Shown here one piece after another: positions 54,892 through 57,246 of a stretch of DNA of 64,000 nucleotides. The DNA comes from an uncultured Porphyromonadaceae bacterium (lineage in GTDB: Bacteria; Bacteroidota; Bacteroidia; Bacteroidales; Muribaculaceae). The position numbers and the translations under genes were made by a program. Below the pieces are notes generated by a model. That model was not told the DNA's origin, did no database searches, and saw only the letters and a program-made list of their open reading frames with translations. The DNA is taken from the NCBI GenBank assembly GCA_900550025.1, contig URQP01000001.1, positions 16,149 through 80,148 on the forward strand, written 5' to 3'. Position 1 is the first letter of the stretch. Each line of letters opens with the position of its first letter.

Positions 54892-55815
54892 CTACTTTAT
54901 TAGACTCTTACATTGGCTGATGAAAATTTCGGTGTATAATTTTGCTCCTTTGTCATTCAGATGTGTCTGGTCTTTATAATATTCAGGATGTTCCAAAAAC
55001 ATTGGAATCTGGCTGTTGTCGATGTAAGTTATGCTATAATCGCTGCATAATTTCTCCATCAACTGGTCGGCTTGTGTTTTTTCTTTGTCGATTAGAAATT
55101 TAGGAGAGTCTACTAAAATCAAAGTAACGCCTTTTTCTTTGATTCTTTTTAATGTGGCTTCAAACCGCTTGAATTTTGTGATGCTTATGTCGCTGTCTGG
55201 TGTAGTTGCCGTGTCAAGCGACATATTTTTTGCAGTTGCGTACAATGGTGCATATCCCTTGCTTGTGTCTGCTGCTGACGACCGGTTAAGATAACGTGCG
55301 GTTATTGATAGTAAAATTGAGTTATAACGGTAAATGTTGCTGTTCAACCGTACGTATTCGCTCCATGGCAGTTCTTCTTCTATTGTGCTGGTTATCCATT
55401 TGTTCTTCCCATAGTAAGGGTACATGTCTTCCAGAGGGTCATATATTCCGGAATAAAGTTTATCGTTGTCAAACTCCCATATTATAGCCTTTGGAGTGTA
55501 TCTGTCGAGTATTGAGTTTACAAGGCAGCAGTTGTAGTTGAAAAAGCATCCGTCACGTCCTACGTTGTATGTAGGCATACCGATGCTGTCTTCTATCAGT
55601 TGTGTCACATAATGGTGTTCTGCCCTTGATGAGCCGACTATGATTGTTTGGTAGTTCGCCTCGTTGAAAGAAAAATATGTTTTTCCGGTTGCCCCTTGGT
55701 TGCTGATTTGAGGGAGCATCCAATCCATCAGAAAGCCTGTGCAACAGTCTATGCCTGTTACTATGGCTAATACTACTGTTATGGTTATGCAGAATTTCTT
55801 TAGTCCTTTTTTCAT
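54892..55815 (-). CDS. SGNH-hydrolase-like/DltD-type membrane protein, partner of MBOAT acyltransferase
   Basis: The 307-residue protein has one N-terminal membrane anchor (about 6-30) and an extracytoplasmic domain with the SGNH-type Ser block VGSSRAEHH near 60 and the late DQTHLNDKGAKLY (Asp/His) near 285. In alginate- and Dlt-type systems such a protein receives or transfers the acyl group delivered by the adjacent MBOAT. The MBOAT gene ends five bases upstream. Many Bacteroidales surface glycan loci carry this pair. Target unknown. Confidence 0.8.
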   Translation of the reverse strand: MKKGLKKFCITITVVLAIVTGIDCCTGFLMDWMLPQISNQGATGKTYFSFNEANYQTIIVGSSRAEHHYVTQLIEDSIGMPTYNVGRDGCFFNYNCCLVNSILDRYTPKAIIWEFDNDKLYSGIYDPLEDMYPYYGKNKWITSTIEEELPWSEYVRLNSNIYRYNSILLSITARYLNRSSAADTSKGYAPLYATAKNMSLDTATTPDSDISITKFKRFEATLKRIKEKGVTLILVDSPKFLIDKEKTQADQLMEKLCSDYSITYIDNSQIPMFLEHPEYYKDQTHLNDKGAKLYTEIFISQCKSLIK

Positions 55816-55820
55816 CGCGT

Positions 55821-56630
55821 TTAGAATTGAAAGTAAATGAATGAGCCGCCGTTCAGAACTCCGAATCCGATAATGTAGCAGATTATGAGTGCCGCTGCCA
55901 TATAGCGTACGGTAATGTGCTTGGAACTGAGGAAGTGGAGCTTCACTTGATATTCTGTTACAAAATCGTATATGAACACTATTGTTGCCGCAAGGAATGC
56001 GAGCAGTATAGTGTTAGGGTCTATAAAAGGCGTGCCACTGTCTGTGAATATCTTTTTCAGGACAGACATTACATCGCCTAAGTATTCTATTCTGAAGAAA
56101 ATCCAAGCAAAATTCACTATCATGAAAGTGATGATTATCCGGAGAAGGTTGCCGGCGGATAATTTGACTGGAATGGATTTAATCCTGTTGCCGTAAATGA
56201 GCCTTTCGGCAACCATACATATCCCATGTAAAGCTCCCCATATTATGAAAGTATAGTTTGCGCCGTGCCATAGTCCGCTCACGAGGAATACAATCATAGT
56301 GTTAAGCATCCAGCGTGCTTTGCCACAGCGGCTTCCTCCTAAAGGGAAATAGATATAGTCCCTGAACCACGTCGTGAGGGAGATATGCCAGCGTCTCCAG
56401 AACTCTGTGACAGTCTTGGAGAAATACGGTCTTATGAAGTTTGTTTGCAGGTCGATTCCAAAAAGTTTGCCGGAAGCGATAGCCATTAATGAGTATCCGG
56501 CGAAATCGGCATAAATTTGTATGCTGTAAAAGATGGATGTCAAGAGCAGGGTTGTCCCATTGTGTTGCGGTATGTTAGAATAGACAGCGTCTACATATAT
56601 CCCCAGACGGTCGGCCAGACATAATTTCAT
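55821..56630 (-). pseudogene. MBOAT O-acyltransferase, C-terminal part (out of frame after a G9 tract)
   Basis: The 269 codons from the ATG at 56630 encode the second half of an AlgI/DltB-type MBOAT: FAGYSLMAIASGKLFGIDL, the conserved FWRRWHISLTTWFRDYIYFP and the catalytic His region LVSGLWHGANYTFIIWGALH. It continues the N-terminal ORF at 56575-57246 if one G is removed from the run at 56633-56641; the joined protein is 474 residues, normal for the family. Alone it lacks the first membrane helices. Confidence 0.8.
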
Positions 56631-57246
56631 TACCCCCCCCCATAATAGCTAACTTGCAGGCTTCCACAGCCTTGTCGTAAGAGAATTTGCGTTTTTCAAA
56701 ATATTGCGGCAGTTGCTTTTGTGCTCTGCTTATAGGGCCGCTTAGAATGCTCGGAAAGAATGTAACGTATGCTAAATAGGCGGCCATATCCTTTGTCGCG
56801 TTGATTTTCTTTTGGAAAATGTCGATGACGTAGCTTAATGCCGTAAATGTGTAGAAACTTATTCCTACAGGAAGGATTATCTTCAATGTCGATGTCCCTA
56901 TTTTTAACCCGGCCAGATTCAGGGCGTCTACAAACGCTTGTACGAAAAAGTTATAGTATTTGAAGAAGAACAATATGCTAATGTTTAACACGATTGCGCA
57001 TAAGAATATTGTCTTTTGTTTGCGGAGGCTGCCTTCCGTCCTTTCTATCCATAATCCGGCGTAGAACGAGGATAATGCCGTCAAGAGCAACAGCCCGAGG
57101 AAGCGCCAGTCCCACCATCCGTAGAATATCAGGCTGGCGGCTATGATTAGGATGTTTTGAAAATTTTTGTTCTTTTTGCACAGTGTCCAATAGATAATGA
57201 ACGTAATGCTCAGAAAAATCAAGTATTCTATTGTTTGAAATGCCAT
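56575..57246 (-). pseudogene. MBOAT O-acyltransferase, N-terminal part (frame lost at a G9 tract)
   Basis: The first 200 codons give a typical MBOAT N-terminus (MAFQTIEYLIFLSITFIIYW, SLIFYGWWDWRFLGLLLL, ILPVGISFYTFTALSYVID, FFPSILSGPISRAQKQLPQ). After the nine-G run the reading passes into a short unrelated tail ending at 56575. Family members continue with a helix leading to ADRLG, which is present in the adjacent frame. The gene starts 25 bases after rmuC on the same strand. In the other tract length (eight or eleven G) it would encode a full enzyme. Confidence 0.8.
56633..56641. repeat. homopolymeric tract of nine C (G9 on the coding strand)
   Basis: The longest G/C homopolymer noticed in the window. 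It lies inside the MBOAT coding region exactly at the frame break. Confidence 0.95.

Follow-up and report, generated by a model that had tools for sequence, protein, structure and literature searches.

An MBOAT gene in the window (the whole 64-kb stretch of DNA that was analysed) is broken at a run of nine G, and is very probably a slipped-strand contingency locus, i.e. a translational on/off switch in a gene whose product would work with the SGNH acyltransferase encoded next to it. Replication slippage, here the presumed mutational process, would lengthen or shorten the tract. When the frame is kept, the MBOAT would be made at full length, and it is predicted to transfer acyl groups through the membrane to its SGNH partner, which would modify an envelope glycan with them. 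In either of the remaining phases, translation would stop at, or soon after, the tract, leaving an OFF product without the catalytic histidine and without the acyl-shuttle tyrosine of the C-terminus, because the histidine and the FXYXXF motif are both encoded beyond the tract. With this scheme, the window would hold an OFF allele of a gene that also exists intact in the same species or one very close to it. The scheme predicts that the switch is reversible in a population, that the enzyme acylates and that a surface glycan is its target. In some organisms, nine G would be few for a tract that switches fast.

The G tract and the interrupted MBOAT gene

Nine consecutive G are read directly from the minus strand at positions 56641-56633, as counted in the sequence, and it is at this tract (56633..56641) that the reading frame changes. 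The N-terminal part of the gene is a 223-residue ORF (56575..57246, minus strand), the final residues of which are an out-of-frame tail, and the C-terminal part is a 269-residue ORF (55821..56630, minus strand). The two ORFs are in different frames and meet at the G run, so that the arrangement described in the initial annotation was found again in both the sequence and the ORF list. Immediately past the tract, the sequence TAATG (56628..56632, minus strand) contains a stop codon in one frame that overlaps the ATG of the C-part ORF. The run was also correctly described as the longest G/C homopolymer of the 64 kb, no other G or C run of at least six being present in the window, where the longest A run is of 7 and the longest T run of 8 nucleotides. 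With a first-order Markov model, approximately 0.18 G/C runs of at least nine are expected per window, so that run length alone is only mildly unlikely and is weak evidence; it is the recurrence of the break at one spot that counts against chance. Among the 94 Gly-Gly dipeptides of the 43 long ORFs of the window (a mechanically defined set, which may include spurious ORFs), the six-G spelling is found only at the tract.

The C-terminal half matches the Pfam MBOAT family (PF03062, E 6.7e-26), and the N-terminal half alone has no Pfam match even at E 5. The intact protein P0121 spans both halves and matches PF03062 above its cut-off (E 2e-28), in agreement with the proposal that the two ORFs are halves of one MBOAT enzyme. 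P0121 also aligns with the solved structure of DltB (6bug, E 2.3e-27), the position of the tract falling on a Gly that DltB has as well in this alignment, and its score against the DltB equivalog TIGR04091 is 159.1 bits, below the curated cut-off of 375. By alignment, the histidine that is invariant in MBOATs (H327 of P0121) is encoded at 56265..56267 on the minus strand, in the C-part only, its role being taken from the accessible passages of PMC12148441. The C-terminal sequence FIYFQF (55824..55841, minus strand) fits the FXYXXF acyl-shuttle motif that the same passages describe for PatA and DltX (PMC12148441). Both H327 and FIYFQF are invariant across 25 aligned sequences, and both are encoded in the C-part of the window's gene. 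A structure model of the MBOAT was too weak for use (pLDDT 58.9).

The SGNH-type partner gene (54892..55815, minus strand) starts 5 bases past the MBOAT stop codon and is intact, as had been claimed; its ORF of 307 residues has the Ser, Asp and His residues. Residues G61, S63, D282 and H285 are invariant across 32 sequences. The structure model of this protein is confident (pLDDT 93.7), and its best fold match is DltD, with PatB at rank 28 and TM-scores of approximately 0.4; no Pfam family was matched above its cut-off. The neighbours of the two genes are housekeeping-type genes on the same strand and, for this reason, the gene context names no glycan.

Intact and broken alleles in close relatives

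With the unmodified C-part as the query, P0121 (474 residues, intact) and P0122 (269 residues, broken) were retrieved, and with the N-part P0001 (223 residues), which is broken in the window's own frame. With respect to the window, P0121 differs at 4 of 200 residues of the N-part and 4 of 269 of the C-part, P0001 at 6 of 200 residues of the N-part and P0122 at 5 of 269 of the C-part. Since P0121, on the one hand, and P0001 and P0122, on the other, are nearly identical to the window, intact and broken forms of the gene coexist in the same or very close species, as is observed at the protein level with the tract lengths deduced from the frames. The removal of one G had been predicted to yield a protein of 474 residues, and P0121 is a natural allele of precisely that length; the reading of the locus as a phase-variable switch, also put forward initially, is supported by the same comparison. 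The corresponding database clusters have 48, 21 and 36 members; both states may be present within a cluster, and these sizes are not taken as frequencies.

Poly-G was read as DNA in the window and in one related locus, L118; the other alleles are protein records, so that in most tract alleles the homopolymer is deduced from the frames. A search with the C-part through all 358 genomes of one family gave four that contain orthologues with at least 72% identity over it. In L118 the tract site carries G11 and the gene is broken; thus, tract placement that alters the frame, as expected for slipped-strand switching, is found with G9 in the window and G11 in L118. In the other three of these four nearest orthologues (L001, L119 and L120), ordinary codons occupy the site and the gene is intact, which demonstrates that the tract is not universal. 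Intact non-repeat sequence in relatives had been named in the initial annotation as contrary evidence: the objection stands for these three orthologues, and fails for L118. Of 393 genomes drawn from across the order, 330 had an MBOAT match and, L001 itself excepted, none was close over the whole C-part (best identity, 51%). Further genome searches with the C-part returned, at the cut-offs used, no additional tract-bearing orthologues as DNA (in one of them, the 20 genomes listed had all been covered by the order-wide draw), and the viral contigs searched contained no relative. DnaE, compared across 76 genomes to place the organism, gave a best identity of 65%, which places it no more closely than as a relative of Bacteroidales. 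The tree of the C-part places the tract-free group among Gly-Gly forms in a poorly resolved region, so that gain and loss of the tract cannot be ordered.

Recurrence of the break and its scatter on the tree

The search with the N-terminal half admitted only proteins of 0.55-1.75 times 223 residues, by which full-length homologues were excluded. Among the 120 matches listed (of 3798), 99 lose the frame at the tract motif, 43 of them by stopping directly after the Gly codons and 56 by continuing in another frame; of the remainder, 11 are in frame through the tract and 10 were left unclassed. The alignment ends within -3 to +4 residues of the tract in 95 of the 120 listed. A further rule, which takes in a few unclassed proteins, leaves 108 of the 120 without an in-frame continuation past the tract. 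When grouped at 90% identity of the N-half, they fall into 71 clusters, and more than one length is present in 17 of these. A second search, which admitted both states, was made with residues 1-200 of P0082 (315 residues) as the query and proteins of approximately 173-551 residues as the range. Of the 120 matches listed (of 7957), 106 are in frame (105 by script, plus P0188, which was added after reading its sequence) and 14 are short, and all 14 short proteins listed break at the tract.

The distribution of the two states was examined on a tree of 120 rows, 84 of them distinct, built from residues 1-197. On it, the 14 OFF tips require 12 changes, of which at least 7 are forced by well-supported branches, most inner branches of the tree being weak. 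With shuffled labels, the mean was 12.9 changes, and 154 of 500 shufflings were as low as 12. Thus, OFF alleles are not clustered, their number of changes being close to the shuffled-label expectation, and their scatter fits frequent switching rather than one old pseudogene. The comparative signature anticipated for a phase switch is found in that many related lineages break at the exact same spot and in two frames, with OFF forms scattered on the tree.

Comparison of 103 OFF with 131 ON proteins over approximately 190 residues revealed seven OFF proteins with an ON counterpart at least 97% identical, namely the OFF/ON pairs P0045/P0164, P0029/P0215, P0041/P0035, P0037/P0050, P0034/P0078 (where P0078 has Gly-Ala at the tract site), P0011/P0173 and P0001/P0121. 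P0012, P0019 and P0032 are identical across 190 residues and have three different endings, and P0168 and P0221, both intact and also identical across 190 residues, differ by one Gly at the site. In the intact proteins P0210 and P0220 one Gly is replaced at the tract site, a change that may lock the gene in frame; the tract-free, in-frame L001, L119 and L120 are possibly locked ON too.

Alternative explanations

Ordinary pseudogene decay, in which a gene that is being lost would have suffered a single break at a run-prone place, accounts for the interruption in the window and for the existence of further broken alleles. It is nevertheless very unlikely by taking into account that both parts of the gene are otherwise open and approximately 98% identical to the intact P0121, that the SGNH partner is intact, that 12 changes are needed for the 14 scattered OFF tips, and that the short proteins among the two-state matches listed all break at the tract (14/14) and none elsewhere. 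A sequencing or assembly error at the homopolymer, with a real gene that is intact, is the least probable of the alternatives, even if long runs are prone to error: the independent records P0001 and P0122 have the same break, OFF alleles come from several sources, with the OFF protein P0007 being found on 116 contigs from four of them, and errors would not account for OFF tails that are long-lived and occur in two frames over 71 clusters.

Two further explanations concern the product of the broken allele. With recoding, slippage of the ribosome or of the transcribing polymerase on the run would yield some full-length protein from the G9 allele, and the gene would be regulated or leaky rather than OFF. 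G runs can cause RNA polymerase slippage and both parts remain open; on the other hand, tract-free orthologues are plainly in frame, and in-frame alleles are the commoner ones (106 of the 120 two-state matches listed), so that no fixed frameshift is conserved. Recoding as the whole explanation is accordingly given little credence, and it may add leakiness to the switch rather than replace it. A split-enzyme switch, with ribosomes restarting in the OFF phase at the ATG of TAATG so that a one-chain and a two-chain enzyme would alternate, seems equally improbable. In its favour are the presence of TAATG at 56628-56632, the 43 of 120 listed N-half homologues that stop right after the Gly codons, and the C-part entries P0122 and P0226, which start at or just before the ATG, such starts being gene-caller choices. 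Against it, the other OFF frame, which is that of the window, reads past the ATG, and a functional split MBOAT was not found in the literature passages available; the ATG needs no restart role, since it is an ordinary in-frame Met codon in L001, L119 and L120.

Poly-G tracts beyond the locus

The slipped-strand switch proposed for the window's MBOAT gene may not be isolated. In one distant genome (G118), a G8 run at L130:2462-2469 interrupts the frame of another MBOAT, here at a second conserved Gly motif. An SGNH-type gene adjoins it, and the locus is in a polysaccharide gene cluster, between the gene of a polysaccharide-type epimerase (PF14667, PF01370) and that of a UDP-GlcNAc 2-epimerase (PF02350). 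Fourteen of 140 family genomes match this MBOAT at E 1e-70 or better, with no other run at the motif in the loci read. In the same genome, a G13 run at L177:2014-2026, the longest of its tracts of at least nine, splits the gene of an AT3 acyltransferase (PF01757) between two frames, one with the typical N-terminus and the other with the remainder, and four BACON-domain genes (L174, L175, L179 and L182) carry G9-G10 tracts at their 5' ends or close to them. From the window tract, the G8 of L130, the G13 of L177 and the four BACON tracts a wider reading can be drawn, although tentatively and at somewhat less than even chances: Bacteroidales would also possess a system of poly-G slippage directed repeatedly at the O-acylation of the envelope, through MBOATs (at no fewer than two Gly motifs) and AT3 enzymes, as well as BACON-domain genes.

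Other tracts were observed during the same scans. The four BACON-domain genes resemble a switchable surface-protein set. G9-G11 tracts lie 83-168 bases upstream of ORFs in L178 (G118), L183, L185 and L188 (G420) and L189 (G466), the downstream ORFs encoding Peptidase_S41, DUF805, Zn-ribbon, LRR_5 and AAA domains, and are possible promoter-type switches. In L065 (1390-1397), a G8 run is found in the 5' part of an open frame, ahead of the conserved start region of an MBOAT. The number of places with at least nine G varies between genomes (none in G517, one each in G001 and G509, five in G418, including the MBOAT one, five in G466, six in G420, nine in G118 and very many in G1214). The 124 overlapping G9 matches in the 3.5 Mb of G1214 are far above the seven other genomes scanned, and may reflect heavy poly-G content or an assembly oddity. 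In the loci compiled, 7 distinct G/C runs of at least eight fall within DNA covered by MBOATs (211 of 1149 kb) and 6 elsewhere (binomial P 0.004), a value that is given little weight because the test is post hoc, the loci were chosen around MBOATs and in part overlap, and several of the runs (those in L095, L138, L044 and L032) leave the gene intact.

If the locus is indeed a switch, these bacteria would hedge envelope acylation by a simple switch, the state of which can be read from sequence. The tract could be counted in existing metagenome reads, making selection by host, phage or immunity for ON versus OFF states testable. Furthermore, truncated database entries annotated as 'alginate O-acetylation' that end at the tract spot may be OFF alleles and not pseudogenes.

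Comparison with known systems

Among the open-access literature matches listed, as far as their passages go, none describes a Bacteroidales MBOAT that is switched by slippage, and phase variation in Bacteroidales is there DNA inversion. A related case within the order is the acetyltransferase-related gene of the B. fragilis PSI/9 locus, for which a C-run indel between strains led to the suggestion of slippage in 2010 (PMC3090145, in the passages available). It shares with the window's gene an indel in a homopolymer run, and differs in that a four-C run with one extra C distinguishes two strains, rather than a recurrent long tract (PMC3090145).

With regard to the enzyme, the available passages on PatA/PatB, AlgI/AlgX and DltB/DltD (PMC12148441, PMC9558356) describe the same pairing of an MBOAT with an SGNH protein, the invariant His and the C-terminal FXYXXF. 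The MBOAT is similar to DltB, and the fold of the partner is DltD-like. The window's pair is set apart from all three by its frame-breaking tract and by a score under the DltB equivalog cut-off. With regard to the switch, phase-variable AT3 O-acetyltransferases are known, such as that encoded by H. influenzae oafA (PMC9558356, PMC11868660, in part). What they have in common is an enzyme for the O-acetylation of an envelope glycan that is turned on and off, which here is a prediction; the MBOAT fold, in contrast, is unrelated to AT3 (PMC9558356), and here there are a separate SGNH partner, a G tract that lies in the middle of the gene at a conserved motif and a Bacteroidales host. The poly-G phasomes of Campylobacter and Helicobacter, as described in the accessible parts of PMC6321876 and PMC2823697, also consist of intragenic poly-G tracts of at least seven with ON and OFF alleles; the window differs from them by its single tract, its phylum and the location of the tract approximately 43% into the gene rather than near the start. 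Slipped-strand switches as such are thus already known, and the reading of the window's MBOAT-SGNH pair as a poly-G contingency locus is well supported.
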